Positions 1,733-37,866 of a stretch of 41,557 bases of DNA are shown here, piece after piece. The notes beneath the pieces were generated by a model. It was not told the DNA's origin, did no database searches, and saw nothing but the letters and a program-made list of their open reading frames with translations. Made by a program: the position numbers and the translations under genes. Origin of the DNA: Desulfocarbo indianensis (GTDB taxonomy: Bacteria; Desulfobacterota; Desulfarculia; Desulfarculales; Desulfarculaceae); NCBI GenBank assembly GCA_001184205.1, contig LBMP01000002.1, positions 701,988-743,544 on the forward strand. The letters are read 5' to 3'. Each line of letters opens with the position of its first letter. Position 1 is the stretch's first letter.

Positions 1733-3715
1733 ATGAGGTACGCAGAGGTAGGATATAATTTAGAAATTGATTTGGCCACGGGCAACATCGAACGGGTGGA
1801 AACCGACCCGAAAATGATGGAGCTTCACCTTGGCGGATTGGGCACCAGCGTCAAGATACACTGGGACCGGGTGCCGCCCGAGACCAAGCCCTTTGATCCG
1901 GAGAACCTGCTCATATTCAGTTCCGGCCTTTTCAACGGCACGCCGGCCTTCAGCGCCAACCGCACCGTCATAACCTTCATTTCTCCCCAATCCGGACTGC
2001 TGGCCTATCCCATGATGGGCGGATTCTGGTCCTCGGAATTGAAGTATGCCGGCTACGACAAGGTGATCCTGCGCAACAAGTCGCCCAAGCTGGTTTATAT
2101 CTGGATTCATAACGACAAGGTGGAAATCCGCGACGCCACCCACCTGAAGGGCAAGGGCGCCCTGGAGACCCAGGACCTTATCCGCGAGGAGCTGAAGCAG
2201 CCCAACGCCCAGGTGGCCGCCATCGGCCTGGCCGGTGAAAACCGGATGTTCTGCGCTTCCATCGAGCAGTCCCGCTCCAGCGCCAGCCGTCTCGGCGGCG
2301 GCGCGGTAATGGGCGATAAGAACGTTAAAGCCATCGCGGTGCGGGGAACCAAGGGCGTCAACCTGGCCGACGGGGTTGAGTTCATGAAGCTCATGGAGGA
2401 GGTTACCGAGTACATCAACTACCGGAACACTAACCCCATCCCCGACGTGATGACCATCCTGTCCGGCATCGGCTCCCCCCAGGAAATGGTGCACACCGAC
2501 GAGAAGTGGCACACGGAGAACTTCGCCTGGGGCAACGCCCGCAACCGGCGCAAAAACTTCTGGACCGATGAGATCGAGGAATCCTGGGCCAAAGCCCAAG
2601 TGGAGGCGATCAAGCGCTTCATCAGCTGCTACAACTGTCCGCAGCACTGCGGCGCCCTGATCGACGCCCCCAATGTTCCAAGATACATGATGAAATGCTT
2701 CTCCAAGCTCACCTATTCCATGGCCGCCTACGTGGATAACCTGGATTTCGGCTTCAAGATCGCGCAGCAGGCTTCGGAGTACGGCGTGGACGGCTTCTCC
2801 ACTCCGCAGATTCTGGCCTTTGGCGTGGAGCTTTACGAGAACGGCATTCTGACTGACAAGGATTTCGAAGGCTGTCCCAAGGATAACGAAGGCAGGTTCT
2901 TCTGGCTGCTGGACAGGGTTGTCCGGCGTGAAGGCATCGGAGACGTCCTGGCCGACGGCACCTACTGGGCGGCCAAGAGGATCGGCAACGGCGCCGAGGA
3001 ATTCGCCCACAACAACATCAAGAAGCACGAGCAGCTGCCCATCAAGCTGGGCATGCTGGACCCCCTCTACTTCTTGATGTACTCCACCAACGAAAAGATA
3101 AGCATCACCCAGATCGAAGGTAACTGGCCCCAGGCTGCTTTCCCCACCAAGGAGCAGCGGGAACGGTTCGTGGAAGACTGGCCCCAACTCCCCGATGAAA
3201 CGTGGAAGGAATGGCTCTTGGAATGGGAGCTGAGGGGCGAAAAGGCCATACCGTATTTCCCGACGCCGGATATCGCCGCCCAGATCGTGGATTGGATGGA
3301 GATGCTGCACAACATAGACGACGCCCTCTGCATCTGCGCGGGCATGGGCTCGTTCTGCCTGAAGCCTCCTTATCACATCCACAATTATCCCAAGCTGATA
3401 TCCGCGGCCACCGGTTTGGACCTGGACGAGGAGGGGCTCAAGAAGATAGTCAACCGGAGCCGCAACCTGCACCGGGCCTACAACAACAGGCTGGGAATGA
3501 GCCGGGCCGACGAAAAGCCGCCCGAGGACCACTGGAAGAAGAGATTCCCCGAGATCGAGGAAGAACTCTTGACCACCTACTACGAGTTCAAGGGATGGAA
3601 TTATGACGGCATTCCCACCAGAGAGAGACTGCACGAACTAGACTTGGATTACGTCGCCGATGACCTTGAAAAGAGAGGAATATTAAAAGATGGCCAAGGT
3701 CAAGAAGAAAATTAA
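1733..3715 (+). CDS. bamB: Class II benzoyl-CoA reductase catalytic subunit BamB (tungsten, AOR family)
   Basis: 660 residues of the aldehyde:ferredoxin oxidoreductase family. In class II benzoyl-CoA reductase this subunit carries the tungsten bis-pyranopterin cofactor and reduces benzoyl-CoA to a cyclic diene without ATP hydrolysis. The N-terminal AOR domain has the expected glycine-rich segments (LGGLGTSVK near 33, RLGGGAVMGDKN near 186). A [4Fe-4S] motif Cys-x2-Cys-x3-Cys lies at C299, C302 and C306, and further cysteines lie at C533, C535 and C542 in the C-terminal domain. The start follows AAGGGG spaced 7 nt from the ATG. It is the first gene of bamBCDEFGHI, and its 3' end overlaps bamC by 26 bp. 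A paralogue acting on another aryl-CoA (for example naphthoyl-CoA or a hydroxylated benzoyl-CoA) cannot be excluded from sequence alone. Confidence 0.88.
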   Translation: MRYAEVGYNLEIDLATGNIERVETDPKMMELHLGGLGTSVKIHWDRVPPETKPFDPENLLIFSSGLFNGTPAFSANRTVITFISPQSGLLAYPMMGGFWSSELKYAGYDKVILRNKSPKLVYIWIHNDKVEIRDATHLKGKGALETQDLIREELKQPNAQVAAIGLAGENRMFCASIEQSRSSASRLGGGAVMGDKNVKAIAVRGTKGVNLADGVEFMKLMEEVTEYINYRNTNPIPDVMTILSGIGSPQEMVHTDEKWHTENFAWGNARNRRKNFWTDEIEESWAKAQVEAIKRFISCYNCPQHCGALIDAPNVPRYMMKCFSKLTYSMAAYVDNLDFGFKIAQQASEYGVDGFSTPQILAFGVELYENGILTDKDFEGCPKDNEGRFFWLLDRVVRREGIGDVLADGTYWAAKRIGNGAEEFAHNNIKKHEQLPIKLGMLDPLYFLMYSTNEKISITQIEGNWPQAAFPTKEQRERFVEDWPQLPDETWKEWLLEWELRGEKAIPYFPTPDIAAQIVDWMEMLHNIDDALCICAGMGSFCLKPPYHIHNYPKLISAATGLDLDEEGLKKIVNRSRNLHRAYNNRLGMSRADEKPPEDHWKKRFPEIEEELLTTYYEFKGWNYDGIPTRERLHELDLDYVADDLEKRGILKDGQGQEEN

Positions 3716-4226
3716 GACTATCAAGATCGATGCTGACCGGTGCAACGGCTGTCGCGGTTGTGAGATAGCTTGCTCTCTCTTCCACGCCGAGCCCAAGTAC
3801 AGCAGCATTAATCCGGCAAAGTCTCGCATCCAGGTGGTCAGCCACCGGCTCAAGGACATCTGGCTTCCGGTTTTCGCCGGCGAATACACCCCCGCCGAAT
3901 GCATGGGCAGGGACGTCTATACCATCGACGGCAAGGAATACGACGAGTGCGGGTTCTGCCGGGCGGCCTGTCCCTCCAGGGACCTGTTCAAGGACCCCGA
4001 CACCGGCCTTCCCCTCAAGTGCGATATGTGCGAGGGCGAGGAAGAGCCCTGGTGCGTCAAGTGGTGCCTCAACGACGTGCTGGTAGTGGAAGAGCGCGAG
4101 GAAGAAGTGGAAGAGGAAGAGGCGCTGGACGACATGGAGATCGGGCTGGAAGCCTTGACCAATAAATTCGGCATGAGCAAGGTGATGGAGACTCTCGCCC
4201 GCATGTCCATGGCCAAAAAGGGCTAG
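3690..4226 (+). CDS. bamC: Benzoyl-CoA reductase Fe-S subunit BamC
   Basis: 178-residue ferredoxin-type protein that passes electrons between the BamDEFGHI module and the tungsten enzyme BamB. Cysteine sets are visible at C18/C21/C24/C28, C87/C90/C94 and C111/C114/C122/C126, enough for three [4Fe-4S] clusters in the arrangement of electron-transfer subunits that pair with AOR or molybdoenzymes. The C-terminal part (about 130-150) is very acidic (EEREEEVEEEEALDD). The start lies inside bamB, with AGAGG upstream of the ATG, so translation is probably coupled to bamB. Confidence 0.85.
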   Translation: MAKVKKKIKTIKIDADRCNGCRGCEIACSLFHAEPKYSSINPAKSRIQVVSHRLKDIWLPVFAGEYTPAECMGRDVYTIDGKEYDECGFCRAACPSRDLFKDPDTGLPLKCDMCEGEEEPWCVKWCLNDVLVVEEREEEVEEEEALDDMEIGLEALTNKFGMSKVMETLARMSMAKKG

Positions 4227-4261
4227 AACGCCAAGGCTAAAGAATAGGACTGGGAAAGACC

Positions 4262-5413
4262 GTGGAAAATTTAGCCGACTATAAAGAGATCATAGATGTC
4301 ATAAAGGCCAGCGGCGGCGACGCCTTCAAACGATGCTTCCAATGCGGATTGTGCGACACTGTCTGCCCCTGGAACAGGGTGCGCGACTTCAGCATGCGCA
4401 AGCTGGTCCGCCAGGCCACCTTCGGCATGACTGAAATCGAGAGCGAGGACATCTGGCGCTGCACCACCTGCGGCCGCTGTCCCCAGCGCTGCCCCAGGGA
4501 CGTCAAGCAGATCGACTCCGGGGTGGCTTTAAGGCGCATCGCCACGGAATACGGCGTGTTCCCGACTTCGGTCAAACCCATCCGCACCATAAGCGCGAGC
4601 CTCATCGGCGAGGGAAACCCGCTGAACGAGGAGCGCAAGAACCGCTCCAAATGGACCGAGGGCCTTTCGGTGAACACCTTTGCCGAGGGCATGGAGATAC
4701 TCTATTTCCCCGGCTGTTACCCCAGCTACGACCCCCGCCTGAAAAAGGTGGCCAGGGCCACCGCCGAAATCCTCACCAAGGCCGGGGTCGATTTCGGCAT
4801 ATTGGGCTCCAAGGAAAACTGCTGCGGCGAGAGCATCCGCAAGACCGGCGACGAAGAGCTCTTCAAGCGCCTGGCCAGGGAAAACATAAAGACCTTCATC
4901 GACAACGGGGTCAAGAAAATCCTGGTCTCCTCACCCCATTGCTACCACACCTTCAAGAACGAGTATCCCGAGTTCATGGTGGACTTCGAGGTGGTTCACA
5001 TCGCCCAGTATTTGTTCGAGCTGATCAATGAGGGCAGGCTGGAGATAAAAAAGGAATTCGCCAAGAAAGTCACCTATCACGACCCCTGCTACCTGGGCCG
5101 CCACAACGGCGTCTATGACGAGCCCCGCGGGGTTTTGGACCGGGTGCCCGGCTTGAAGCTGAGCGAAATGCCGGATTCCCGAGTGGACAGCCTCTGCTGC
5201 GGCGGCGGCGGCGGCCGCATCTGGATGGAGACCCCCAAGGGCGAAAGATTCTGCGATATCAGAGTGGAACAGGCCGTGGGCGTGGAGGCCCAGGTGCTGG
5301 TCACCGCCTGCCCCTATTGCATAACCAACTTCGAGGACAGCAGGCTGAATCTGGATCTGGAAAACACCATAGAGGTCAAGGACATCACGGAAATCATCCA
5401 GGAAGTCATCTAG
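4262..5413 (+). CDS. bamD: BamD, HdrD-like Fe-S/CCG-domain protein
   Basis: 383 residues resembling heterodisulfide reductase subunit D (fused HdrC and HdrB). The N-terminal HdrC-like part has two classical [4Fe-4S] motifs: C25/C28/C31/C35 and C67/C70/C73/C77. The C-terminal part has two CCG domains. The first has C152, C187-C188-Gly and a single cysteine C227 where two are usual. The second is complete (C276, C312-C313-Gly, C350-x2-C353). CCG domains ligate non-cubane Fe-S clusters in HdrB. In Bam this subunit probably links the HdrA-like BamE to the BamBC enzyme. The start is a GTG 35 bp after bamC; no upstream ATG fits. Confidence 0.85.
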   Translation: MENLADYKEIIDVIKASGGDAFKRCFQCGLCDTVCPWNRVRDFSMRKLVRQATFGMTEIESEDIWRCTTCGRCPQRCPRDVKQIDSGVALRRIATEYGVFPTSVKPIRTISASLIGEGNPLNEERKNRSKWTEGLSVNTFAEGMEILYFPGCYPSYDPRLKKVARATAEILTKAGVDFGILGSKENCCGESIRKTGDEELFKRLARENIKTFIDNGVKKILVSSPHCYHTFKNEYPEFMVDFEVVHIAQYLFELINEGRLEIKKEFAKKVTYHDPCYLGRHNGVYDEPRGVLDRVPGLKLSEMPDSRVDSLCCGGGGGRIWMETPKGERFCDIRVEQAVGVEAQVLVTACPYCITNFEDSRLNLDLENTIEVKDITEIIQEVI

Positions 5414-5445
5414 GGACCCTGGAAACCTGAAGAGGATATGGAGCC

Positions 5446-8400
5446 GTGGAAAATAAGCTTTTCGCAGGACAGGAAGTAATGCTTCCCGCAGCCGGCAATT
5501 TTGGCGATGTCATGGTCGTCGGTGGAGGAATCAGCGGCATTCAAGCGTCTCTTGACCTTGCCACTGCGGGTTTCAAGGTTTACCTGATCGAGAAAGGGCC
5601 GAGCATCGGCGGGCACATGGCCCAGCTCGATAAAACGTTTCCCACAAACGATTGCTCTATGTGAATTCTCTCGCCCAAACTGGTCGAGGTCGGCCGGCAT
5701 CCGAACATAGAGATTCTGACTTACACCGAAGTCAAGAGCGTCGAGGGCAAACAGGGAGACTTTAAGATTACTTTGACTAAACGGCCAAGGTACATCATCG
5801 AGGACAAGTGTACGGGTTGCACGACCTGCGTGGAGCACTGTCCCGTGGAGTATCCCGATCAATTCAACCAAGAGATCAACAGCAACAAAGCGGTCCACAT
5901 CTTCTTTTCGCAGGCGATTCCCCTGGTGGCCTACATCGATGAGAGCTGCCTCTACCTGAAAGAAAAGAAGTGCCTCATCTGCGAAAGCGTCTGCCAGGCC
6001 GGCGCCATCGATCTCCATCAGGAGCCTGAAAAGATCGAGCTCAACGTGGGCGCCATAATCCTTTCCCTGGGCCTGGAGCCCTTCGATCCCAAGGTGAAGG
6101 ACGAATACGGCTACGGCAGGCTGCAAAACGTGGTCACCAGCATGGACTACGAGCGCCTGCTCAGCTCCACCGGGCCCTACGCCGGCCAGGTGCTGCGCGC
6201 CTCCGATAAAAAGCACCCTCAGAAAATCGCCTGGATTCAGTGCATCGGCTCCCGGCGGGTGACGCCGGGCGACAACAGCTATTGCTCGGCCGTGTGCTGC
6301 ACCTACACCCAGAAGCAGGTCATCCTGACCAAGGACCATGAAGCCGAGGCGGAGTGCACCGTATTCCACAACGACATCCGCTCCTACGGCAAGGACTTCG
6401 AGCGCTACTTCCAGCGGGCCGACAATCTCAGCGGCACCCGCTTCATCAGAAGCTACGCTTCCATCGTGGGCGAGGACCCGGAGACCAAGAACGTCATCGT
6501 CAAATACGCCACCGCCGACCAAGGGGTCAAGGTGGAAGAGTTCGACATGGTGGTCCTGAGCGTCGGCCTGACCCCGCCCAAGAACGTGGATAAGCTGGCC
6601 GAGACCTTCGGCATCGAACTCAACTCGCACAATTTCTGCAAAAACAACCTCATCAATCCCATCGAGACCACCCGGCCCGGCGTTTTCGTGAGCGGCACCT
6701 TCGTGGGCCCCACGGATATTCCGGAATCGGTCTTCAGCGCCAGCGGCGCGGGGGCCCAGTGCGGCCAATTGCTGGACCGCCGGCGGGGCAAGCTGACCAA
6801 GGAGCGGATTTATCCGCCCGAAAAAGACGTCGCCAACGAGGAGCCCAGGATCGGCGTGTTCGTGTGCCACTGCGGCGCCAACATCGGCAGCGTGGTGAAC
6901 GTGCCTTCGGTGGTGGAATACGCCCTGACCCTGCCCAACGTGGTCTACGCCCAGGAACAGCTCTTTTCCTGCGCCACCAACTCGGCCATGCAAATAACCG
7001 ACATGACCAAGGAAAAGGGCCTCAACCGCGTCATCATCGCGGCCTGCTCGCCCAGGACCCTCGAGCCGCTGTTCCGGGACACCCTGCAGGAAGCGGGCAT
7101 CAATAAATATTACTGCGAAATGGCCAACATCCGGGAGCACAACTCCTGGGTCCACTCCAAGGAAAAGGAAGACGCCACCGAAAAGGCCAAGGACATCGTC
7201 CGGATGTCGGTGGCGCGCGCCTATCACCTGGAGCCATTGCAGGAATTCGACCTGCCGGTGAACAAGACGGCCCTGGTGGTGGGCGGCGGCATAGCCGGCA
7301 TGACCTGCGCCCTTTCCATCGCCAACCAGGGGCACACGGTGTGCCTGGTGGAAAAGGAAAAGGAGCTGGGAGGGGCGGCCCGCAGGATCCACTACACCCT
7401 GGAAGGCCTGGACGTGCAGGCCTATCTGCGCGATTTGATCCGCACGGTGTATCAGCACCAATCAATACACGTGTATCACGACGCCAGCATCCTGGACGCC
7501 TCGGGTTACGTGGGCAATTTCATAACCAAGGTGAAATCCGACAAGGGGATCAGCGACATCAAGCACGGGGCTGTGGTGCTGGCCACCGGAGCCGAGGAAT
7601 ACAAGCCCACCGAATATCTTTATGGCGAAGACGACAAGGTGATCACCCAGGTGGAGTTGGAAGAGAAGATAGTAAACGACGACGAAAAGCTCCTCGCCTC
7701 GGAAAACCTGGTGATGATTCAGTGCGTGGGCTGCAGAAACGAGGACCGCAACTACTGCGCCCGCATCTGCTGCGGCCACGCCATAAAGAACGCGCTGAAG
7801 CTCAAAGAGAAAAAGCCGGAGATGGACATCTACGTGCTTTTCCGGGATATGCGCACCTACGGCTATGCCGAGGATTATTACCGGGAGGCCTCCAACAAGG
7901 ACGTGAAGTTCATCCGCTGGGAACCGGAAACCAGGCCCAAGGTCCAGGCGGTGGAAGAGGGCGGCAAGCCCGTGATCCGGGTGGCGGTAACCGACCCCGT
8001 GTTGGGCCAGGAGATCGCCATCGACGCCGACAGCCTGGTGCTGTCCGCGGCGGTCATCCCCTCGGCCACCACCAAGGAAGTGGCCAACCTGTTCAAGGTG
8101 ACCTTGAACCCGGACGAGTTCTTCAAGGAGGCCCACGCCAAACTGAAGCCCGTGGAATTCGCCACCGACGGCGTATACCTGTGCGGCCTGGCCCAGTATC
8201 CCAAGCGGATAACCGAATCCATCAGCCAGGCCTACGGCGCCGCCGGCCGGGTCCTGACCCTGCTTTCGCACGACACGGTGGTGGCCTCCGGCGCCATCTG
8301 CGAGGTGATGGAGGACGCCTGCGTTTCCTGCGGCGCCTGCATCACGGCGTGCACCTATGGGGCCATCGAGTTTGTCGACACCGCCAAGGGCCGCAAGGCC

Positions 8401-8532
8401 TGGGTCAATCCCGTGCTCTGCAAGGGCGACGGCGTCTGCAACACCAAATGCCCCACCGGGGCCATTACCCTGAAGCACTTTACCGACGACGAACTGTTGA
8501 GCCAGATAGATGCGGCGATGCCAGGCTTGTGA
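5446..8532 (+). CDS. bamE: BamE, HdrA-like flavoprotein, selenocysteine-containing (UGA at 5662-5664)
   Basis: Read through an in-frame TGA at codon 73, this is a 1028-residue HdrA-like protein, the flavin subunit proposed to bifurcate electrons. Seen in order: FAD Rossmann motif VGGGISG (25-31); the motif NDCSM-Sec-ILSP (68-77), where most HdrA proteins have Cys in the Sec position; [4Fe-4S] ligands C122/C125/C128/C132; a further cluster motif around C176/C179/C183; the HdrA motif VCHCG (about 472-476) opening a second HdrA-like half; a second Rossmann motif VGGGIAG (about 612-618); and a C-terminal 2x[4Fe-4S] ferredoxin (last 60 residues). Homology continues without a gap across the TGA, so a nonsense mutation or two genes is unlikely. 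The start is a GTG with AGAGGA 9 nt upstream. It lies 32 bp after bamD. Confidence 0.88.
5662..5693 (+). promoter_or_regulatory. Selenocysteine UGA and candidate SECIS hairpin in bamE
   Basis: The in-frame TGA is at 5662-5664. Eighteen nucleotides later the apical loop GGTCGA (5682-5687) sits on a stem ACT/GGT (5679-5681/5688-5690), with an internal loop and an outer CC/GG pair (5675-5676/5692-5693). A GGUC-type apical loop at this distance resembles bacterial SECIS elements bound by SelB. The stem is short and was folded by eye, so the structure is tentative. The Sec assignment itself rests on the conserved cysteine position. Confidence 0.65.
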
Positions 8533-8591
8533 AACCTGCGAAGCCGACTATTGAGTAAATCGTTATTTACTCGCAAGGGAGGTGATTACGC

Positions 8592-9359
8592 ATGAGTTCA
8601 GCACGTAAATTCAAGCCTAGAATATTGGGTTTCGTATGCCATTGGTGAGCGTACGGCGCAGCGGACATGGCTGGAGTTTCCAGACTACAATACAAGAATG
8701 AGATCAGGCTGATTCGTGTGATGTGTTCCGGAAGGATCGACCTGGAGTTTATCCTCAGGGCCTTCGCCAACGGACATGACGGCGTATTCATAGGGGGTTG
8801 CAAGCTAAATGAATGCAACTATGTCACGCAAGGCAACTACGATGCGCTGGGCAACACGCTTTTGTGCCGCAAGATAATGGCCTACATTGGACTCAACCCC
8901 GAGAGGCTGAAGATAGAGTTCATGAACGCCAGCGACGGAATCAAATTGGCCGAAAGCATCAACGCGTTCAGTGAGAGTGTCAACGAGTTGGGGCCGCTGG
9001 GCCAGGGCGAGGGCGAAAAGGAAGAGGGGCTGAAATTCAAGCTGGACGCCGTCAGAAAGCTGGTCCCCTACTTGAGGCTCGTGGAAAGAGAACGGCTGAG
9101 AATGCCCGTCAAATCGGAAGAGGCCTACAGAAAATTCTTCGCCAGCCCCGAGATGGACAGGCTGTTCAATGAACTGGTGGCGAACAAAATGGCCATGAGC
9201 CAGATCATGATGCTCCTGAGGGAAAAACCGCTTTCCACCGGAGAAATCGCCAGCACTTTGGGCCTCAGCCCGTCCGAGGTGGCAAAGCACATTAACGTTT
9301 CTTCCATGCACGGATTAGTCAGATACGATGTCGCTCAGAACAACTACGCCATTGCTTGA
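8592..9359 (+). CDS. bamF: BamF, MvhD-like [2Fe-2S] protein with C-terminal HTH, selenocysteine-containing (UGA at 8646-8648)
   Basis: 255 residues when the TGA at codon 19 is read as Sec. The start is fixed by a near-perfect Shine-Dalgarno GGAGGTGATT 4 nt before the ATG. The MvhD/FlpD domain (about 10-140) has the motif VCHW-Sec-AYGAADMAG, where homologues have Cys-x2-Cys. Further cysteines at C45 and the pair C70/C75 complete the [2Fe-2S] site. MvhD passes electrons to HdrA, and BamF should do the same to BamE. The C-terminal 55 residues form a winged-helix (LSTGEIASTLGLSPSEVAKH), found in some bacterial MvhD relatives. A start at the internal ATG (8667) would lose the first cluster cysteine and the family's N-terminus, so it is rejected. 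The gap to bamE is 59 bp. Confidence 0.87.
8646..8683 (+). promoter_or_regulatory. Selenocysteine UGA and candidate SECIS hairpin in bamF
   Basis: The TGA at 8646-8648 is followed by a perfect hairpin CTGGA-GTT-TCCAG at 8671-8683. Its GTT loop (8676-8678) starts 28 nt after the UGA, inside the distance range used by bacterial SelB. The stem overlaps conserved coding sequence (AGVSR), so part of the pairing could be incidental. Confidence 0.65.
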
Positions 9360-9411
9360 GTTGGAAGAACCGGCATTGTAGCAGGGCGAAAAGAAGATTA
9401 GGACAGCGCCT

Positions 9412-9864
9412 ATGGACACAGAGAGAGTCGACCAGATTATCGATAAGCACCATGGCGAAGCCAGTTCGCTGATCCAGGTATTGCTGGACATCCAAAGCGA
9501 AAACCACTGGCTCCCCAAGGAAGCCTTGGAAAGGGTCAGCCAAAGGCTGCAGGTTCCTCAAGCCCGCATACAGCACATCGCTACCTTTTATAAGGCCTTC
9601 AGTTTGGTCCCCAAGGGACGCTATGAAATTCACATCTGCATGGGTACCGCCTGCCACGTCCGCGGCGCGCAGCGCATCCTGGACACTGTGCAAGAACTGA
9701 CCGGCATCAAGCCCGGCGAAACGGACTTGGATTTGAAGTTCAGCCTGCAGACGGTCAACTGCCTGGGCTGTTGCGCTCTGGGCCCGGTGATGGAAATCGA
9801 CGGCAAGACACACGGCAAGATGGGGACTTCCCAAACGGCAGACGTGCTCAAAAGCTATGACTAG
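9412..9864 (+). CDS. bamG: BamG, NuoE-like [2Fe-2S] subunit
   Basis: 150-residue homologue of the 24-kDa NADH dehydrogenase subunit NuoE/HoxE. The [2Fe-2S] ligands are C76, C81, C117 and C121 (Cys-x4-Cys and Cys-x3-Cys), in CMGTAC and CLGCC. The N-terminal four-helix bundle is present (residues 1-60). With BamH and BamI it forms a NADH- or ferredoxin-oxidising diaphorase-like module supplying BamEF. It lies 52 bp after bamF and 3 bp before bamH. Confidence 0.85.
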   Translation: MDTERVDQIIDKHHGEASSLIQVLLDIQSENHWLPKEALERVSQRLQVPQARIQHIATFYKAFSLVPKGRYEIHICMGTACHVRGAQRILDTVQELTGIKPGETDLDLKFSLQTVNCLGCCALGPVMEIDGKTHGKMGTSQTADVLKSYD

Positions 9865-9867
9865 GAA

Positions 9868-11802
9868 ATGATTATGCCGCGAATAAATTCACCAGCTGAG
9901 TTGGAAGAATACAGGCGGGGCCTCTTGGCGGAAAGAGACCCCAACAAACCTTGCATCACCCTTTGTTCCGGCTCCGCCTGCCACGCCACCGGCAGCAAGG
10001 AAGTGGCCGCCAGTCTGGCGGAGGAGATCGAAAAGCAGGGCCTGGGCAGCGAGGTGGACATCAGGCTAACCGGCTGCCATGGTTATTGCGAGCGGGGCCC
10101 GATCATCGTCATCCACCCCGAGGAAATCTGTTATTTCCAGATTTCGCCCGAGGACGTTCCCGATATCATCTCCCAGACCATCAAGGAAAAGCAGGTCGTG
10201 GAGCGCTTGCTCTACACCGACCCGGAGACCGGGGAAAAAATCGTCCACGAATCCGAAATCCCCTTTTACAAGCACCAAGAGCGCCTGGTCTTCGGCTCCA
10301 ACGGCAACATCGACCCCAAGAACATCGACGACTACCTGGCCATCGGCGGCTATTCCGCCCTGGCCAAGGCCCTCAGCGGCATGACCCCCGAGTCGGTGCT
10401 GGAGGAGGTCAAAAAGGCCAACCTGAGGGGGCGGGGCGGCGGCGGTTTCCCGGCGGGCAGAAAGTGGGAAGGCTCCCGCGACGCTCCGGACGAGACCAAA
10501 TACGTGATCGTCAACGCCGACGAAGGCGACCCCGGCGCCTACATGGACCGCAGCCTTCTGGAGGGCAACCCCCATTCGGTCCTGGAGGGCTTGACCCTGG
10601 GCGCTTTCGCCATCGGCTCCCACGAGGGCTATATCTACGTGCGCCAGGAATATCCCCTGGCGGTGCAGAACGTGAACCTGGCCATCAAGATGGCCGAGGA
10701 ATACGGCTTTCTGGGCAAGAACATCCTGGGCTCGGGCTTCGACTTCATCGTCAAGGTGCACCAGGGCGCCGGCGCCTTTGTCTGCGGCGAATCCACCGCC
10801 TTGATGACCGCCCTGGAAGGCCGGGTGGGCGAGCCCCGGCCCAAATACATCCGCTCCAACATCAAGGGCCTTTGGGAGAAACCCAGCGTCTTGAACAACG
10901 TGGAGACCTGGGCCAACGTGCCGCTCATCATTAATAAGGGCGCCGACTGGTTCACCCAATACGGAACCGAGACCAGCAAGGGCACCAAGATTTTCTCCCT
11001 GGTGGGCAAGATCACCAACACCGGCCTGGTGGAGGTGCCCATGGGCACGCCGCTGCGCGACATAATCTATAAGATAGGCGGCGGCATTCCGGGCGGCAAG
11101 AAGTTCAAGGCCGTGCAGACCGGCGGCCCCTCGGGCGGCTGCATCCCGGAGAACATGCTGGATCTGCCGGTGGGCTTTGACGAGCTTTCCAAGGTCGGCT
11201 CCATGATGGGCTCCGGCGGCATGATCATCATGGACGAGGACACCTGCATGGTGGACGTGGCCAGGTACTTCATCGATTTCCTCACCGATGAATCCTGCGG
11301 AAAATGCGTGCCCTGCCGCGAGGGCCTGCGGCAGATGCTCAAGATTCTCACCGACATCACCCAGGGCAAGGGCAAGGAAGGCGACATCGAGACCCTGGAG
11401 GCCCTGTCCGAAACCGCCAAGGAGGCCGCGCTTTGCGCCCTGGGCAAGAGCGCGCCCAACCCCTTCCTCAGCACCCTGAATTATTTCCGGGAAGAATACG
11501 AGGCGCACATCAAGGAGAAGCGGTGCCCGGCCCGCTCCTGCAAGGCGCTGATCTCCTTCCATATCGATCCGCAAAAGTGCCAGGCCTGCGGGATTTGTCT
11601 CAAGAAATGCCCCGCCCAAGCCATCGACGGCGGCAAGAACAAGATCCACGTGATCGACCAGGATAAGTGCACCAAGTGCGGCACCTGCTTCGAGGTCTGT
11701 CCGGAACGTTTCAGCGCGGTCATGAAAACATCCGGCGAGCCGGTTCCGCCACCCATCCCTGAAGCAGAAAGAACCATTGTCAGAAAGAGCAAGAAAAAAT
11801 GA
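9868..11802 (+). CDS. bamH: BamH, NuoF-like flavoprotein with extra ferredoxin domain
   Basis: 644 residues homologous to NuoF/HndC. In order: a thioredoxin-like [2Fe-2S] domain (C33, C38, C70, C74); the NADH/FMN-binding domain with the glycine-rich motif LRGRGGGGFPAGRKW (186-200); the SLBB region; the NuoF [4Fe-4S] motif CGKCVPC (C477, C480, C483); and a C-terminal 2x[4Fe-4S] ferredoxin (CQACGICLKKC starting near 571, then CTKCGTCFEVC). The extra N- and C-terminal cluster domains are typical of NuoF relatives in soluble bifurcating complexes. The start at 9868 has a second in-frame ATG two codons later; the choice makes little difference. Confidence 0.85.
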   Translation: MIMPRINSPAELEEYRRGLLAERDPNKPCITLCSGSACHATGSKEVAASLAEEIEKQGLGSEVDIRLTGCHGYCERGPIIVIHPEEICYFQISPEDVPDIISQTIKEKQVVERLLYTDPETGEKIVHESEIPFYKHQERLVFGSNGNIDPKNIDDYLAIGGYSALAKALSGMTPESVLEEVKKANLRGRGGGGFPAGRKWEGSRDAPDETKYVIVNADEGDPGAYMDRSLLEGNPHSVLEGLTLGAFAIGSHEGYIYVRQEYPLAVQNVNLAIKMAEEYGFLGKNILGSGFDFIVKVHQGAGAFVCGESTALMTALEGRVGEPRPKYIRSNIKGLWEKPSVLNNVETWANVPLIINKGADWFTQYGTETSKGTKIFSLVGKITNTGLVEVPMGTPLRDIIYKIGGGIPGGKKFKAVQTGGPSGGCIPENMLDLPVGFDELSKVGSMMGSGGMIIMDEDTCMVDVARYFIDFLTDESCGKCVPCREGLRQMLKILTDITQGKGKEGDIETLEALSETAKEAALCALGKSAPNPFLSTLNYFREEYEAHIKEKRCPARSCKALISFHIDPQKCQACGICLKKCPAQAIDGGKNKIHVIDQDKCTKCGTCFEVCPERFSAVMKTSGEPVPPPIPEAERTIVRKSKKK

Positions 11803-12416
11803 GTGACGTCACTTTGCAAATAGACGGCAAAGAGGTCAGCGCCAGGGAAGGGATGACCATTCTGGAAGTGGCCCAAAGAGAGGGGATAACCATCCCCACT
11901 CTTTGCCACCACGAGAAATTGGAGCCTTTCGGCGGCTGCCGGCTGTGCACGGTGGAAGTGGATGATCGCGGCTGGACGAGCTACGTCGCCTCCTGCGTTT
12001 ATCCGGTCAAGAAGAACATCGCGGTGAAAACCAGGTCCGAGAAGGTCGATAGAATCCGCAAGACCATCATCGAGCTGTTGCTGGCGCACGCGCCCGATGC
12101 CTTTGAATTGCAGAAACTGGCGGAGGAATACGGGGCCGACCGCGACAGGTTCGAGAAGCAGGCGTCGTTCTGCATTCATTGCGGCCTTTGCGTGCGGTAT
12201 TGCGACGAGGTCAAGAAGGCCCACGCCATCGGGTTCGTTGACCGGGGCATTCGCAAGGAAATCAGTTTTATTCCGGAAATAGCCGCCCAGGTGTGCTGGG
12301 ACTGCAAAGAGTGTTTTCCGCTCTGCCCCACCGAGGCGCTGCAGGCGGCCTATGTCTTGACCAAGGCGCTGTATCCGCCCAAGACCGAGGGCGATCCCAA
12401 AGCCTTGGGCAGGTAG
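11799..12416 (+). CDS. bamI: BamI, NuoG N-terminal-like Fe-S protein
   Basis: 205 residues matching the N-terminal electron-transfer part of NuoG and related hydrogenase subunits. It has a plant-type [2Fe-2S] domain (C36, C47, C50, C66) followed by a [4Fe-4S] ferredoxin-like segment (CIHCGLCVRYC near 122-132 and CWDCKECFPLC near 167-177). It lacks the molybdopterin-like C-terminal domain of full NuoG. Start and bamH stop overlap as ATGA, so translation is coupled. It is the last gene of the operon; two strong hairpins follow. Confidence 0.85.
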   Translation: MSDVTLQIDGKEVSAREGMTILEVAQREGITIPTLCHHEKLEPFGGCRLCTVEVDDRGWTSYVASCVYPVKKNIAVKTRSEKVDRIRKTIIELLLAHAPDAFELQKLAEEYGADRDRFEKQASFCIHCGLCVRYCDEVKKAHAIGFVDRGIRKEISFIPEIAAQVCWDCKECFPLCPTEALQAAYVLTKALYPPKTEGDPKALGR

Positions 12417-21490: not shown

Positions 21491-24400
21491 CTAATTTTCA
21501 ATTCGTGTCAAAGAGAGAGCTTGTCCCGCTATAGGCATGTGAATGAAAAGACCGATACAGTTCTTCCCCGTCGCTTTAGCTATCGCCTCTCCGTACGCGG
21601 TCAGCTGCCCCGCATAGCCTTTCGCATGATCTACAGCTTGCTCATGGTTTCCAGGAAATGCCTTGTGGTCAATTACAGCGAATCCATTATCCGCGACCAC
21701 TACCAAGTCGGCCTGTCCTGCCATGATGCTACCATTGCCGAGGCACTGCCAAACCGGCCATTCCCGATGCAGCTCTGCCCCAGGCCAGCGCTGGTTTATC
21801 CAGTTCAGCAGGGCGTCACTAGCCGCTATCATCTCCGTCGGCATAAGTGTGTCTGGTATGCCCCAACGAGTAAGGATAGACCCCGCCATGTCCAGGCGAT
21901 CTTGGTACCGAAAATCATTACGGTCAGCCGCAAAGAAAGTGTGAAGGACCTCACCCAACTGTACCGGCTCAGCCTTGCCGCCAAGGGTCATTCGGTTTCC
22001 AAGACGAATCTGCTCCAGAACTTTACCAAGGCCCTCAATCGACGACGGGGACACGCGGGCCGGTGGATGCTGGCGTGGGCCAGAAATTGTATAGTCTTCT
22101 CCGGGCTCGGGGGCAATTTTGGCTCTATCTAACGGTCCTGATGATCGCACCAGGCAATCGGCAGTCACTCCCGCCCACTTTACTCGGCCTTTTTGCGGTT
22201 CGCTTAGCAAGGGGGTCCCATTTACTGCAATGAGGGCCATGGCCCCTTGTTCCAGTTCCCCCTCCTTGCCTGCCAGCACTAGACGGTCCCGGGCCCGGGT
22301 CCACCCCACGTACAACAACCTTAGCGCCTGGCGCCTCTCTCGTTCATTGCGGGTATGCCATTCTGGACGAGCCCTGATACGATCCAGGAGCTCAATGCCA
22401 CTGGAAAGGCCGCCGTAGGGATAAGGCATGTAACGCACCCAGCGACCGTTCAGGGGAGCCTTCAGATTAAAACCTTCTTGGTCCGAAAGCACGGTCACGC
22501 CATCTGTACCCGCCTCCCACATCTTTCCCAATTCATATAGTACGGTTACAGGCCATTCCAGTCCCTTTGCGCGGTGCCAGGTGGATATGGTCACCGCCTG
22601 ACGGGCCGGATCGGTCCCCTGGGAGTCAAGTTCCGCCTCTGCCAATTCCTCCAGGTGGGCCACCAAGCCGGCTGGGGTGGTTCCACTTCCTTTTTCAAGT
22701 GCTCCCCGGGCGTAAGTCAGTGCGTACGACCTGACGGCCTCAAGATTGGCCAATCGCACCTCCGATTCTCCCCAGCTAAGACAGCGCTCCCGGGCATTCA
22801 CCGCGTCCACCACAATATCCAGCGCTATCAGCGGACCGGCCAATGTGTTTTCACCCACCCGGCGCTTGATCTCCACCGCTTCGGGTAATTCAAAGAAACT
22901 CTGACCTTGATCGTGAAGGACCTCGGCCAGCCATAGATCGGGATCCTGTGCATAATGGACCAGACGGGCTAGTTCAGCCGCAGCCAGCCTGTCTCTGCCA
23001 TCCACCCACAACCTCAAGCCGGCCAGGATTAGCCGGGCCTCGGGGGTGGCCATCAAGCCGGTGCGGCCCAGTTCGGCCTTGATTCCAGCCTCGGCCAGGG
23101 CGTCGGCCACCTGACTGGCGCGATTGGTGGTGCGGCACAGAATACCAATGTCAGACGGCCTCACCTCCCGGGCCTTCCCACTGGCCCGATCTCGCACCCT
23201 GGCCTCGGGATCGCCAAGTAGTTCGGCTACCGACGCCGCCAAGCCGGCATTCTGAATAGCAACTGTGCCTTCCATCTGCCAGCGTTCCAAGAAAGGACCT
23301 AGCTTATGGGGTTCATCCTCTAATGCCGGCTCCAACCTGACCAGTTCCTCGGGCATGCCATGGCCGGCAAAGGCACGCGCAAAGACCTGGGAAGTCAACT
23401 CCACCAGTCCGGGGCGACTGCGCCATGATTTAGGCAAGGTCTCAGTGGCCGCTTCCTTGCCAAGCTGTTCCATGCAAGCATCCATCAAAGCGGGGTCGGT
23501 GTCCCTGAAACCAAAAATGGATTGCTTTTGATCACCTACCCAAACTGCTTTGCCACATACTTCAGCCAGTTTGAGCAGAATGGCTAGTTGGATGGGGCTG
23601 GTGTCCTGAAACTCGTCCACCACCAGCAACTCCAACTCCTGGGAAACGCGCTGGCAAACGTCCTCCTTTTCAAGCAGACGCAACGCGAGGAATTCTTGAT
23701 CGGCGAAGTCGAGGGCACCCCAGTGGCGCTTAAGGTTTTGGAACTGATTGTAGCCAGCTTGGGCTAGATCAAACACCAACTCGATTGCCCTGGTTAGATC
23801 GTGTTGAAGTTGGGGATGAGCCAGATGCTTGTTTGCGATTTCCCGCACCGGATCGAGGAAATGGTCAGATTTTTTGGTAGCGCCTATTTTCCCCAGCTTG
23901 GCCCAGTCAGGCCAAGTGAGTAGATCATTGCTTTCCAGACGGGCCAGGTATTGTTCAACGGACTTTACTGCGGTTGCAGTGCCTTTGGTTTTGTCTAAGC
24001 TAATGTCCACCTGCCGCAGGAAATCATTTAATGCCTGACGGAGGTCGTGCTCCAAGACCGCTGGGCGGAGCGGCTTGTCAAAAAGATCCAGGCACATTTG
24101 CACGCTTCGCTTTTTACAATCCCCAAGAGCACCAGGATCGAGACCATTGGCCCTGGCTTTCTCAACGATCTCCTGTGCCGCACCGCTCCAATCAAATCCG
24201 TTGAAGCGGTGGTCCAAGACAGCGAGCTCTTGTTGAGTCGTCATGTCGGTGCTGGCAGATAATGCCCGTTTGAACTGGGCCTTCACCTGGTCCTCGTCCA
24301 GGATGTTCACATCGGGGAACAAACCCAGCTCAAAAGCGAAGTCTGACACTAGCCCGCCGCAGACCGAATGCACTGTGCCCATTCGGGCCGCCGACATCCG

Positions 24401-24610
24401 CTGAGCCTCGCGGGTCAATCCCTCTTTAATGAGCCGGCGGCGCACGCGTTCGGTCAGTTCAGCAGCTGCCTTGCGAGTAAATGTGGTGGCCACCACCCCT
24501 TCAGGCCTTACGCCATCCCGAATGTTTTCAATGATCACCTCGGACAAGCGGTAAGTTTTGCCACTCCCGGCGCTGGCCGATATAACCTTGATGTTTGCCC
24601 CGGCCATCAT
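21491..24610 (-). CDS. AddA-like UvrD helicase with C-terminal RecB-type nuclease domain
   Basis: 1039 residues from the ATG at 24610, which overlaps the upstream gene's stop as ATGA. The SF1A helicase motifs are complete: Walker A SASAGSGKT (11-19), Ia TTFTRKAAAEL, II VDEFQDTSP, III VGDQKQSIFGF, IV SWRSRPGL, V STWHRAKGLEWPV and VI LLYVGWTRARDRL. The C-terminus is a PD-(D/E)xK nuclease with GEVLH, a DLVVV strand, D981-H-K983 and QLTAYGEA (QxxxY motif). This is the AddA layout: a 3'-5' helicase that unwinds and cuts DNA ends, working with an AddB partner, encoded just upstream. It may serve as a defence nuclease or as the island's own end-processing enzyme. A longer frame reaches 24658 but ignores the coupled start. 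Confidence 0.85.
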   Translation of the reverse strand: MMAGANIKVISASAGSGKTYRLSEVIIENIRDGVRPEGVVATTFTRKAAAELTERVRRRLIKEGLTREAQRMSAARMGTVHSVCGGLVSDFAFELGLFPDVNILDEDQVKAQFKRALSASTDMTTQQELAVLDHRFNGFDWSGAAQEIVEKARANGLDPGALGDCKKRSVQMCLDLFDKPLRPAVLEHDLRQALNDFLRQVDISLDKTKGTATAVKSVEQYLARLESNDLLTWPDWAKLGKIGATKKSDHFLDPVREIANKHLAHPQLQHDLTRAIELVFDLAQAGYNQFQNLKRHWGALDFADQEFLALRLLEKEDVCQRVSQELELLVVDEFQDTSPIQLAILLKLAEVCGKAVWVGDQKQSIFGFRDTDPALMDACMEQLGKEAATETLPKSWRSRPGLVELTSQVFARAFAGHGMPEELVRLEPALEDEPHKLGPFLERWQMEGTVAIQNAGLAASVAELLGDPEARVRDRASGKAREVRPSDIGILCRTTNRASQVADALAEAGIKAELGRTGLMATPEARLILAGLRLWVDGRDRLAAAELARLVHYAQDPDLWLAEVLHDQGQSFFELPEAVEIKRRVGENTLAGPLIALDIVVDAVNARERCLSWGESEVRLANLEAVRSYALTYARGALEKGSGTTPAGLVAHLEELAEAELDSQGTDPARQAVTISTWHRAKGLEWPVTVLYELGKMWEAGTDGVTVLSDQEGFNLKAPLNGRWVRYMPYPYGGLSSGIELLDRIRARPEWHTRNERERRQALRLLYVGWTRARDRLVLAGKEGELEQGAMALIAVNGTPLLSEPQKGRVKWAGVTADCLVRSSGPLDRAKIAPEPGEDYTISGPRQHPPARVSPSSIEGLGKVLEQIRLGNRMTLGGKAEPVQLGEVLHTFFAADRNDFRYQDRLDMAGSILTRWGIPDTLMPTEMIAASDALLNWINQRWPGAELHREWPVWQCLGNGSIMAGQADLVVVADNGFAVIDHKAFPGNHEQAVDHAKGYAGQLTAYGEAIAKATGKNCIGLFIHMPIAGQALSLTRIEN

Positions 24611-27177
24611 GCCCCCCGTCCACGGCCACATAGCCCTGCCGCATTGCAATAACCGCAAGAAGAAATCAGCACCATTCCTGATTCGTCAATAGTGCTCTTT
24701 TTTGGGGGGGCTTCGCCGGCGCCCGGAGCGTGGATGATGCCAGCATCAATCTCGATAAATCGTTGGTTCACGGCACTGACTAGGGCCTCCCATGTCTGTT
24801 CAATGGAAGGGCCTTTCAGTCCCTCGGCACTGGGGAAAATACCTTGGTCTGTAGTGAGCATGGCCGCTTCGCGGATGATGAATACGCCACATGCCGGCAG
24901 ATTATTGCTCCGCTTGTCTTGGCAGAGATGGGCGTAGCATGCCATTTGGGTTGCTGTACCGTTCTCCAGCTTTTCGCGCCAACGACGGCTGCCTCCTCGC
25001 TTGAAATCGATTACCGCGTGACCGGCCACCAGGTCTGGTATGCCGTGAAGCTCGAAATCCAGCTCCGGAACCTTGCGGCTGTACCTAGTTTCCATTGCCG
25101 ATGGCTTAAGCCCGGCGGCACTTAGCATCTCTACCAATCTCTTGGCGGCCACGCCCACCGCCCGCCTGGTCCTGGCCTTGACGTCCTCTTTCCCTGGTTG
25201 GAAAATCGGTGCGGCCAGTAAAGGTCCATCCCGATCGAAAATCTCCAGCGCTTGGCATTCGGCCTGTTGAGGCTCAGCCGGCAAGGTCTCCAGTAAACGG
25301 GCCAAAACCTCATGCATGAACTGCCCTTCTAAAAATGAGCCGCTTTGCAACGAAGCTGTCGAACCACCCCGTATGTAGGCAAGGTCCTCGATCACCCACC
25401 GGAAGGGGCAGCTCACCAGCCGCTCTAGGCTGGCGGGCCACTCCTGCTCCCTGCGCAGGGTCGCTCCCTTGGGGGCATGCCATATTGGCACCGGCCCGGG
25501 TAGCTCTACCAAATGCCGTTTACTGCGTTTGGGGGCACCTATGGGTTGGGCCATCTCAAGCAAGGAAGTGTCGGCCCCTTTTTCAGCTCTGGCCAAGACC
25601 TCATCCCACAAAGGATGCGTAGCCAGCTCCTCGCCATCTTCGCCACGGGCCGGACAAACCAGGAGCAGGATCTCTTCAGCCATAAGCAGTGGCCTTTGCC
25701 AAGCCTGGGCCAACGCCAGCGCCTCGTCGCCGGGTTCGGGAATCTCTACCCCGGCCTCCCGCAGTTCCTTTCTCTCATTGGAATTTAAAGGCAATTGATG
25801 CGGTCTGGCCTCGGAACCGCGATGGAAATTCCACCATACGATTACCTTGGCCCGTCCCACGATACTGCCTGGTGTGCCCACACTGGCCATGCCGGCCTGG
25901 GCCTGGTTCAAGGCCGGGAGTCCGACCTCCGCGGTGGCGTCCTGAATAGCTCGCTGAAGTTGGGCTGGGGACAGATCGCTTACACCTGACAGGTCCAGCA
26001 ACCTCATGAGGTTGCTTAGTTGCCTCAGCACCGGCTCCAATAGCGCCTGCTCTTCATCTCCCAGTTTAGCCCGTCCCCTGGCCCAGTTCTCCAATACTGT
26101 TAGGCGTTCTTCGATGGAGCGAACCGGATAGCGTCCCTTCTGATCGGCTTGGCTGAATAAGAGTTCAAGCCGTTTTCGCACGCGAGAGCGTGATTCTGGG
26201 TCGGGGAGTTTTTCAAGGCCTTCTGCCAGCGCCTTTTGCCAGACATCTGAACCGACCGCGGGCCATTCTTGCAGGGCGTTGGTAAGCCGAAAGGCAATTC
26301 CGCGCGGGACCGGACCCTGCGGAAGGGTCAGAAGCTCCAGGGCACGCTGTGGATCCGGGGGGCTCCATCCCATCTCCAAGACCAAAGGCACCACTTGCAA
26401 AAGGGTGTGGTCATACACGCTGGACGGAGAACCAAGGCAAGGCAAACCGAAGTTACGCAACTCTCTATCCAGCACTGCATCGCCGCCAATGATGACCGTG
26501 CCATTCAGATCACCCCTGGCGGCCAGCCAGGCCGCCACCTCATGGGCTGCCGCTAGCGGACCTGCCGGGCGTAGAAGCTGCAAGCTGCCGTCACCCGTGG
26601 GCTTGAATCCCGGCTTTCGCGCGGCCTCGAGATCGCCGGAAGGTGTTGCCGCTCCAGGCTCCATGACCTCCACTTTGGTCCCTTGCGCCTGCAACGCCTT
26701 GAGCACCTGTCGCCATGCCAGGGGCAATTCGTCCAAAGGCTCACATAGACTTACTCGTGCCATGTCAGCCCGACGCTTTGAAAGGGTCTGGAAAACATCA
26801 TTCAGGCGGTCAGGGAATCCCGGCAGCACACTTTTGGTTACCTGTGCCAGTGATTTTAGCAGCGGTGTGACCGGCTGGCCCTGCCAGCCATGCAGGCACA
26901 GGCGGTCCCGCCAAGTCAGCAGTTTGCGTGCCGTGCCGAATGGGTCCACCTTGGCCGACTCGGACCAGAAACCGTTTTGCTTTTGAATCGTTGGCACCAG
27001 AGCCGCAGCCCTAAGAGCGTCCGGTTCAGCCGGATAGCGCAGACCAAGGGTGGTTTCCAGCAGCGAAAGCAGACCATTCTGGCCCACCCAGGTCTCACCG
27101 GCCACTGCCTCCAGGTCAGTGAGAGGACCGGGCCAAAAGCCTGCGTCGAACTCTGCAGAAAAGGTTACGCATTTCAT
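24607..27177 (-). CDS. AddB-like protein with iron-staple PD-(D/E)xK nuclease domain
   Basis: 856 residues. The N-terminal two thirds look like a degenerate helicase without a Walker A, as in AddB. The C-terminal nuclease has LVSCPFRW (C590), a DLVAGHAVIDFKRGG active site (D724, K726) and TQMACYA (QxxxY motif). The very C-terminus has Cys-x2-Cys-x5-Cys (C841, C844, C850). One cysteine before and three after the nuclease is the [4Fe-4S] staple of AddB, Cas4 and Dna2. With the overlapping downstream AddA-like gene it should form a two-nuclease complex. The overall length is shorter than most AddB proteins. It lies 77 bp after the SF2 helicase gene. Confidence 0.8.
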   Translation of the reverse strand: MKCVTFSAEFDAGFWPGPLTDLEAVAGETWVGQNGLLSLLETTLGLRYPAEPDALRAAALVPTIQKQNGFWSESAKVDPFGTARKLLTWRDRLCLHGWQGQPVTPLLKSLAQVTKSVLPGFPDRLNDVFQTLSKRRADMARVSLCEPLDELPLAWRQVLKALQAQGTKVEVMEPGAATPSGDLEAARKPGFKPTGDGSLQLLRPAGPLAAAHEVAAWLAARGDLNGTVIIGGDAVLDRELRNFGLPCLGSPSSVYDHTLLQVVPLVLEMGWSPPDPQRALELLTLPQGPVPRGIAFRLTNALQEWPAVGSDVWQKALAEGLEKLPDPESRSRVRKRLELLFSQADQKGRYPVRSIEERLTVLENWARGRAKLGDEEQALLEPVLRQLSNLMRLLDLSGVSDLSPAQLQRAIQDATAEVGLPALNQAQAGMASVGTPGSIVGRAKVIVWWNFHRGSEARPHQLPLNSNERKELREAGVEIPEPGDEALALAQAWQRPLLMAEEILLLVCPARGEDGEELATHPLWDEVLARAEKGADTSLLEMAQPIGAPKRSKRHLVELPGPVPIWHAPKGATLRREQEWPASLERLVSCPFRWVIEDLAYIRGGSTASLQSGSFLEGQFMHEVLARLLETLPAEPQQAECQALEIFDRDGPLLAAPIFQPGKEDVKARTRRAVGVAAKRLVEMLSAAGLKPSAMETRYSRKVPELDFELHGIPDLVAGHAVIDFKRGGSRRWREKLENGTATQMACYAHLCQDKRSNNLPACGVFIIREAAMLTTDQGIFPSAEGLKGPSIEQTWEALVSAVNQRFIEIDAGIIHAPGAGEAPPKKSTIDESGMVLISSCGYCNAAGLCGRGRGA

Positions 27178-27254
27178 TTGATTTGTCAGGGCCTTAATTT
27201 TAGTTTCTTTGGCGTGAGGTTTTGCACTATCAACCGCTTTGTACCAGAATTTTG

Positions 27255-30200: not shown

Positions 30201-30425
30201 GACGATGTCGATTCTATCCACTTCTCTTCGCAAATGTTCGATTGCAAGCGCGATGATCCCCCGCGCCACAAGAGTCTTCCCGAGACCAACCTCATCAGCC
30301 ACGAGAAAACGGTCTGTGGTGGTCGGGTCGAGGTAGAAACGGCGAAACACGTACTCAGCGGTACGACGTTGGAAGTCCTTTAATCTGGCAAGGACAAGTT
30401 CTGTATTTTCAGATCTTCTTGTCAC
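27255..30425 (-). CDS. SF2 (SNF2-like) helicase of the defence array
   Basis: 1056 residues. Motif I is DEVGLGKTLVARG (44-56), Ia VYICSN, II ILDEFQRF (a DEFQ instead of DEAH box), III LLLSATPYKML, and the C-terminal RecA lobe has STSIGQEGLDFHTW and LEQREGRIHRYKG. Between the lobes lies an insert of about 450 residues. This fits large SNF2-type translocases of restriction and defence systems rather than replication helicases. The start is a GTG whose sequence overlaps the PLD gene stop as GTGA, so translation is coupled. The coding sequence is AT-richer than the bam genes and the AddAB-like pair. The target and directionality are unknown. Confidence 0.82.
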   Translation of the reverse strand: MTRRSENTELVLARLKDFQRRTAEYVFRRFYLDPTTTDRFLVADEVGLGKTLVARGIIALAIEHLRREVDRIDIVYICSNVSIASQNIHRLNVTGVQEFVRPTRLSLLPMHIAGIRKNHVNYVSLTPGTSFDPKSREGKDEERALIHLLLKGKLGVSPAGLRRLLQCRVSDDNWSWWTHEWRPEALDSDICEAFVKNVIEDRDLHQRIADFCAMSKRRVLWDHPERLELVSELRFRLAEMSVEMLEPDLIILDEFQRFKNLLDHTNPEARLAQKLFRYEQVKTLLLSATPYKMLSLDHEQDDDHYPDFLNTLRFLFDSDSAIDDIKREIQSFRQSLYMIGTENGSAVSSARDALQSTLCRVMCRTERVGMTNSLDAMLSESRDKPTLQPCDLHEAVMADRVASSVGARDIIEYWKSSPYLINFLRRYEFRRKLEAQCDDPSDELIAALSSDGNRLLQKAAIKSYQEVSPSNPRMRELFSLTIDRGLWKILWMPPSMPYSKPDGPYAEINKVTKNLVFSAWNVVPDAIAALCSYEAERRMISGLSKQISHDQLYDELRPLLRYSRSAEGRLTGMSVLILLYPSPTLADLLDPLDLSMAHHEAGPIPPDIMIERAGEVLEPLLLKLIEGTTDIGPEDQRWYWAAPALMDGHRFPSLKSWLMDGNEGWPSVSTDGYTERGERFKEHLELLYQVMDQDTETPLGRPPADLINILSMMAVAAPGVCALRALRRQSPSLAWDSNALLNGAVRISEGFRTLFNLPESIALLRGDKPDTFYWQLALRHCLEGNIQSLLDEQSHCLIESLGVIDESEPERAIAIGDSIGSSLSVRTSQLQLDEVHVDLENRKVKLEGYNTRCRFALRFAELRDERGTTVARADTVREAFNSPFRPFVLASTSIGQEGLDFHTWCHSVIHWNLPNNPVDLEQREGRIHRYKGHAVRKNVALAYGLNALREGWDQKGDPWRFMFELAKKDRPAEANDLIPYWLYEVEGGARIERHVPILAFSKDEPHYHRLKKMLAVYRLVFGQPRQEDLLEYLVDVECDKQQYDTDRWRVALEPMT

Positions 30426-33431: not shown

Positions 33432-33496
33432 TCCTGCTTACCTCATAGATAGTCGAAAGTTAATGACGATAACATGTTGTGAGACACTCTTCCTAT

Positions 33497-36400: not shown

Positions 36401-36511
36401 GCCGGCGTCCTCGGCGTTCTGCAACAGCTCAAAAAGAAAGTGTGTTCGATCTGTGTACAAACGCCCAAGAAAAGACAGATGGCGAATTCCCTCACCGTAT
36501 TCTCGGATATT
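33497..36511 (-). pseudogene. Sacsin-type GHKL ATPase with C-terminal HNH-like zinc domain, 5' end split off by IS256
   Basis: The frame is open from the insertion target duplication to the stop (1004 codons). The N-terminus is a GHKL/Hsp90-like ATP-binding domain of the sacsin type: LYTDRTHFLFELLQNAEDAG holds the N box, followed by IGKFGIGFKSVYAYT. The C-terminus has a four-cysteine zinc knuckle, CQIC then CPLC about 45 residues later, resembling an HNH fold in which the usual catalytic His-His is replaced (HYFEAVEAF). The first 11 codons lie on the other side of the IS element at 37859-37891, and the joined gene would encode 1015 residues. No in-frame ATG occurs in about the first 300 codons of this fragment, so a useful truncated product is unlikely. 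Confidence 0.8.
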
Positions 36512-36519
36512 GTCCGCTC
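36512..36519. repeat. Target-site duplication of IS256 element, left copy
   Basis: GTCCGCTC directly abuts the left inverted repeat and is repeated at 37859-37866 beside the right one. An 8-bp duplication is usual for the IS256 family. The repeat falls in codons 9-11 of the disrupted ATPase gene. Confidence 0.85.
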
Positions 36520-37858: not shown

Positions 37859-37866
37859 GTCCGCTC
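37859..37866. repeat. Target-site duplication of IS256 element, right copy
   Basis: Second copy of GTCCGCTC, identical to 36512-36519. Confidence 0.85.

Follow-up and report, generated by a model that had tools for sequence, protein, structure and literature searches.

The bam operon and its surroundings

The window, a 41,557-nucleotide stretch of the Desulfocarbo indianensis genome, is the terminal part of a 743-kb contig in a draft assembly of 5.1 Mb (333 contigs, 98.65% complete). It contains a complete bamBCDEFGHI operon at positions 1733–12416, as defined by domain and PDB matches, and the gene order is also shared by relatives. The features of the operon are collected in Table 1, which includes an in-frame TGA codon, read as selenocysteine (Sec; U), and a downstream hairpin in both bamE and bamF.

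Table 1. Genes and recoding features of the bam operon (window coordinates).
Feature	Position	Strand	Description or basis
bamB	1733..3715	+	W-dependent AOR-family catalytic subunit; Cys322 kept, His255 -> Thr
bamC	3690..4226	+	polyferredoxin; match 4z3w_E 1.8e-73
bamD	4262..5413	+	HdrD/CCG-domain FeS protein
bamE	5446..8532	+	HdrA-like FAD/FeS protein, 1028 aa, one Sec, GTG start
TGA, Sec73 of BamE (CSMUILSPK)	5662..5664	+	reading frame and alignment
Bacterial SECIS hairpin of bamE, CTGGTCG AGGT CGGCCGG	5680..5697	+	comparative
Shine-Dalgarno of bamF, GGAGGTGAT	8578..8586	+	sequence; 5 nt ahead of ATG
bamF	8592..9359	+	MvhD/FlpD domain (residues 11-134) and C-terminal ArsR-like winged helix; 255 aa, one Sec
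TGA, Sec19 of BamF, second Cys position in CHWU	8646..8648	+	reading frame and alignment
Bacterial SECIS hairpin of bamF, CTGGA GTT TCCAG	8671..8683	+	25-37 nt past T of TGA; comparative
bamG	9412..9864	+	NuoE-like [2Fe-2S] protein
bamH	9868..11802	+	NuoF-like FMN/FeS protein
bamI	11799..12416	+	NuoG-N/HoxU-like FeS protein

Elsewhere in the window, a defence island spans positions 21491–41234 on the minus strand. Here, PADLOC models identify a UvrD-like helicase, a PD-(D/E)XK nuclease, ZacC/ZacB/ZacA, and TmtA-like and DrmD-like proteins, and a Mutator-family transposase lies inside the island at 36587–37810. Just upstream of the window is an ORF of 1026 amino acids (L219:4218-7298, G000:C111), which combines part of a molybdopterin oxidoreductase with part of a class V aminotransferase and has a MoeA gene close to it.

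The TGA codon of bamF and its recoding signal

The ATG-initiated ORF of bamF encodes a protein that begins MSSARKFKPRILGFVCHWUAYGAADMAGVSR... and is divided into two domains. Profile searches identify PF02662 (1.2e-44) and HTH_5 (1.3e-6), and the fold of the AlphaFold model (pLDDT 88) agrees with that of the MvhD chains 5odc_D and 8rvu_F along some 130 residues (TMt 0.92), with the remainder containing a winged-helix domain by both model and profile. When BamF is aligned to 5odc_D, the MvhD of the Mvh-Hdr complex, U19 falls on the second Cys of CNWC, and the five conserved Cys of the MvhD/FlpD family (positions 16, 19, 45, 70 and 75) read C U C C C. Frame and alignment therefore agree with the earlier note, which placed the TGA at codon 19 on the second Cys of the first MvhD CxxC motif; the Shine-Dalgarno sequence and ATG that it described upstream are also present.

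Across 131 distinct relatives the site-19 column contains TGA in 115 and TGC or TGT in the other 16, with no third codon type. The presence of TGA at this site is, judging from the aligned codons, more than chance. A draft genome in 333 contigs does leave room for sequencing error, in which case the real codon would be TGC or TGT, or bamF could be a pseudogene. However, the identical TGA recurs in over 100 distinct sequences that span several phyla and the reading frame is unbroken, making error or decay a negligible prospect.

The 5-bp hairpin reported earlier is present behind the TGA, but its folding energy is unremarkable (z -0.07 versus shuffled sequence), and single-sequence folding of both the bamF and bamE hairpins gives no signal above shuffled sequence. 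As the energy of the bamF hairpin is at the shuffled level, the hairpin alone is no evidence and the case rests on the comparison of relatives. Neither RNAalifold on the BamF alignment, where the loop is probably too small for the energy model, nor an Rfam search for SECIS elements returned a signal.

That comparison is informative. The sequence GCTGGAGTTTCCAGA is nearly frozen in at least 105 distinct Sec-type relatives, and the codons for Ala-Gly-Val-Ser-Arg are nearly always GCT GGA GTT TCC AGA from Desulfobacterota to Bacillota, whereas in Cys-type bamF they are free to vary (third-position entropy of 0–0.6 bits in Sec forms versus about 0.8–1.85 bits in Cys forms). Within the stem, three pairs (C25-G37, G27-C35 and G28-C34) never vary, and the fourth, U26-A36, is found in 102 of 105 sequences. 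The loop-closing Gly3-Val3 pair covaries: among 111 Sec forms it is A-U in 98, C-G in 10, G-C in 2 and mismatched in 1. Watson-Crick pairing at this position thus occurs in 110 of 111 Sec forms against a shuffling expectation of 88.4 (0 of 20000 shuffles equal) and in 2 of 16 Cys forms. The bamF hairpin lies close behind the TGA and has a conserved G in a small apical loop, NGUN(U), which is the arrangement that defines bacterial SECIS elements (PMC1088965); the bamE hairpin has the conserved loop G as well.

The alternative in which the TGA is a real stop and translation restarts at the internal ATG at 8667 would yield a protein of 230 residues without the first Cys motif, and a mechanical ORF search does report this ORF. 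Yet no evident Shine-Dalgarno sequence precedes 8667, the residues ahead of Met26 are conserved in all relatives, CxWU included, and the restarted protein is predicted from the model to lose the first strand of the MvhD fold (residues 11–16). In addition, a real stop would leave a SECIS with conserved synonymous sites without any purpose. The conserved residues around the site and the frozen RNA element contradict translation from 8667 only, a possibility that the earlier note had raised, and such a restart is extremely improbable. As the element is frozen and covarying in Sec-type genes and neither in Cys-type genes, termination, pseudogene formation and restart all become very unlikely.

The adjacent BamE carries a Sec site of its own, as previously proposed. 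U73 aligns to the second Cys of the HdrA CSxC motif (5odc_A), and at five successive codons around CTG GTC GAG GTC the third base is the same in 63 of 63 distinct Sec-type bamE genes but varies among the Cys-type. The consensus hairpin has a folding energy of -10.3 kcal/mol, a value that none of 100 column shuffles reached. In the region of residues 73–83, Cys-type BamE of the loci compared reads CSMCIESPKFIEC; relative to this form, Sec-type BamE lacks both the Glu two residues past the site and another Cys located nine residues along. The same genome encodes tRNA-Sec, SelA, SelB and SelD, and its SelD gene itself contains a TGA.

Co-occurrence and order of the two Sec sites

The comparison of both sites across Bam operons, which the earlier note had advised, reveals a nested arrangement and no free association: BamE has Sec only alongside Sec in BamF. 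The sample comprised 106 distinct loci in which both codons were read. BamE/BamF states were Sec/Sec in 66, Cys/Sec in 28, Cys/Cys in 12 and Sec/Cys in none, counts that are not population frequencies since the loci were ranked by how closely they resemble the BamF of the window. At loci where B to H are all present, the corresponding numbers are 40, 23, 3 and 0. The suggestion that Sec in both subunits may be less common is not borne out, as this is the commonest state in the sample (66/106 loci), and earlier papers describe tandem Sec HdrA and Sec MvhD from Deltaproteobacteria as well as methanogens (PMC1794560, PMC2702500, PMC13188914). Loci from Geomonas and Geobacter are mostly of the BamE Cys/BamF Sec type, and one (L187) has a Cys BamF.

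A targeted search of 20 further regions, mostly of Cys-type BamF relatives and including four from the window's own genome, found no BamE Sec with BamF Cys in Bam operons. Within Bam, BamE Sec is thus seen, in the sequences compared, only where BamF has Sec, and this is modestly new. The order in which BamF Sec comes before BamE Sec does not hold throughout the wider family, as the search returned one exception outside Bam at a locus of the window's own genome (L217), where HdrA has Sec and its MvhD is all-Cys.

In other non-Bam MvhD proteins (L214, L240, L241, L242 and L243) Sec occupies the equivalent of BamF Cys70 instead of site 19. These proteins are mostly encoded beside a Sec HdrA, and the MvhD family has two alternative Sec sites. 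There is also a second Bam-like cluster (L132, L209, L213 and others), widespread in the window's family, which comprises B to F plus a BamH-like protein but lacks BamG; its BamF has a different C-terminus, and both Sec are present where read.

A quick maximum-likelihood tree was built from BamE and BamF with the Sec sites masked (106 rows, 1272 columns, LG+G4). The state of BamE changes at least twice on this tree and that of BamF at least seven times. The odds lie slightly on the side of shared ancestry as the sole reason for the missing combination, with BamE having gained Sec twice in lineages that already had BamF Sec and with no functional link, as the ordered pattern depends on just two inferred BamE changes. 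Against this, all seven inferred BamF changes fall on BamE-Cys branches, even though 54% of the total branch length belongs to BamE-Sec branches (naive p about 0.004). Further, SelB is kept in all checked genomes with Cys-type BamF (G000, G081, G040, G205 and G431), so that loss of Sec decoding, which was considered as the origin of Cys-type BamF, is ruled out for these genomes and does not explain the pattern. The stronger proposal is that BamE Sec tunes a step for which BamF must be in its Sec form, so that BamE Sec works only with a Sec BamF and the two sites evolve as a unit, gained in a set order; it is tentative and on balance unlikely.

It could also be supposed that the TGA is a selenium-responsive switch, with Sec read-through when Se is present and truncation when it is absent, so that bamF expression reports Se supply. 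Sec genes are inherently Se-dependent, and some genomes have extra copies with BamE/BamF states UU and CC (G205 and G431) or UU and CU (G143, G426, G355, G181 and G208), to which the Methanococcus vhu/vhc isoenzymes are a formal parallel (PMC11097638). The window's own genome, however, has a single BamB and lacks a Cys-type copy of Bam. It encodes just one further close relative of BamF (C222, L074; 58% identical), which adjoins SAM synthetase and AdoHcyase instead of bam genes, and a related Desulfobacula pair adjoins MetF/MetV. A switch of this kind is therefore improbable.

The Cys-type HdrA/MvhD pair of C222 was considered separately as a Se-free spare for BamEF and rejected, as it has no bam neighbours and adjoins methionine-cycle genes, and its tree sister is likewise beside MetF/MetV. 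Both all-Cys pairs (L074, G000:C222, and L204 from Desulfobacula) branch inside the Bam tree and form a one-carbon branch of BamEF-like proteins.

Function of the Sec pair and comparison with known systems

The reading that we favour, at a probability of roughly 95%, is that bamF is a true selenoprotein gene. Here, SelB and tRNA-Sec would decode UGA19 as Sec, directed by the SECIS hairpin, and BamF would serve as the MvhD-type [2Fe-2S] carrier of the Bam (class II aryl-CoA reductase) complex. The Sec sites of Bam would be ordered, with BamF Sec widespread and BamE Sec added only on top of it.

In the Mvh-Hdr, Fdh-Hdr and Elp-Hdr complexes, the [2Fe-2S] cluster of MvhD (ElpC) feeds the bifurcating FAD of HdrA (PMC12350162, PMC6019823). 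The BamF-to-BamE step is, on the basis of the alignments, homologous to that from MvhD to HdrA, and by this analogy BamF would receive electrons from the remainder of the complex and hand them on to the flavin of BamE. It is plausible that the two Sec residues lie on both sides of this step, where their simplest role would be faster or tuned BamF-to-BamE transfer. Chemically, Sec may provide a faster or lower-potential redox step, or may be a cluster ligand. Three divergent MvhD homologues have Ser or Thr at site 19 and keep the other four Cys, so that the family does not strictly require a ligand at this site.

The substrate is approached through BamB, whose best PDB match is Geobacter BamB (4z3w, 1.1e-302) and which retains the tungsten ligand Cys322. 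The genome has no other close homologue of BamB and also encodes the ring-opening hydrolase BamA/Oah (TIGR03200, 509 bits; cut-off 464), and for these two reasons aryl-CoA reduction by the window's Bam is likely. The positions of Glu251, His255, Glu257 and His260 read E T E H in the window, with a His at 254, so that the full set is incomplete; they read E H E H in most both-Sec relatives. His255 is among four residues described as invariant in the Zn site and in the path of the protons (PMC12096430). Given its replacement by Thr, benzoyl-CoA is only a putative exact substrate. The His254/Thr255 variant is also found in L099, L133, L179, L191 and L197, possibly a Bam subfamily with another substrate.

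In many Bam complexes, two Sec sites and not one are to be expected per BamDEFGHI unit, which bears on Se demand and on how Se stoichiometry is read in this ring-reducing complex. The CC, CU and UU series is a natural set for testing the role of Sec in a flavin-based bifurcating electron path. bamF also shows how a selenoprotein with a TGA near its start codon is easily overlooked.

The closest known system outside Bam is that of the MvhD/VhuD/FrhD selenoproteins (PF02662, CxxU), which are alike in having Sec in the CxxU of the delta subunit and in sharing their operon with a Sec HdrA. The window differs in its partner enzyme, which is the W-dependent Bam complex, in the additional winged helix at the C-terminus of BamF, and in its SECIS, which is of the bacterial kind and located within the gene.

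The class II benzoyl-CoA reductase of Geobacter metallireducens, BamBCDEFGHI, has a set of eight genes identical to that of the window. For this organism the published list has a single Sec FrhD and lacks a Sec HdrA (PMC1794560), in agreement with the BamF-only Sec of most Geomonas and Geobacter loci, whereas the window has Sec in both BamE and BamF and Thr in place of BamB His255.

Desulfococcus multivorans shares with the window the Sec in BamE of its bam cluster, and BamF Sec is not listed for it (PMC5109826). As the ORF that remains behind a TGA at codon 19 is shorter but looks normal, BamF Sec may easily be missed. An explicit statement of the double-Sec Bam arrangement was not found in the literature searched, a partial coverage with several key papers outside it. 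The Sec pair of the window is real and well supported, and it joins Sec HdrA/MvhD tandems and BamE Sec that were already known.
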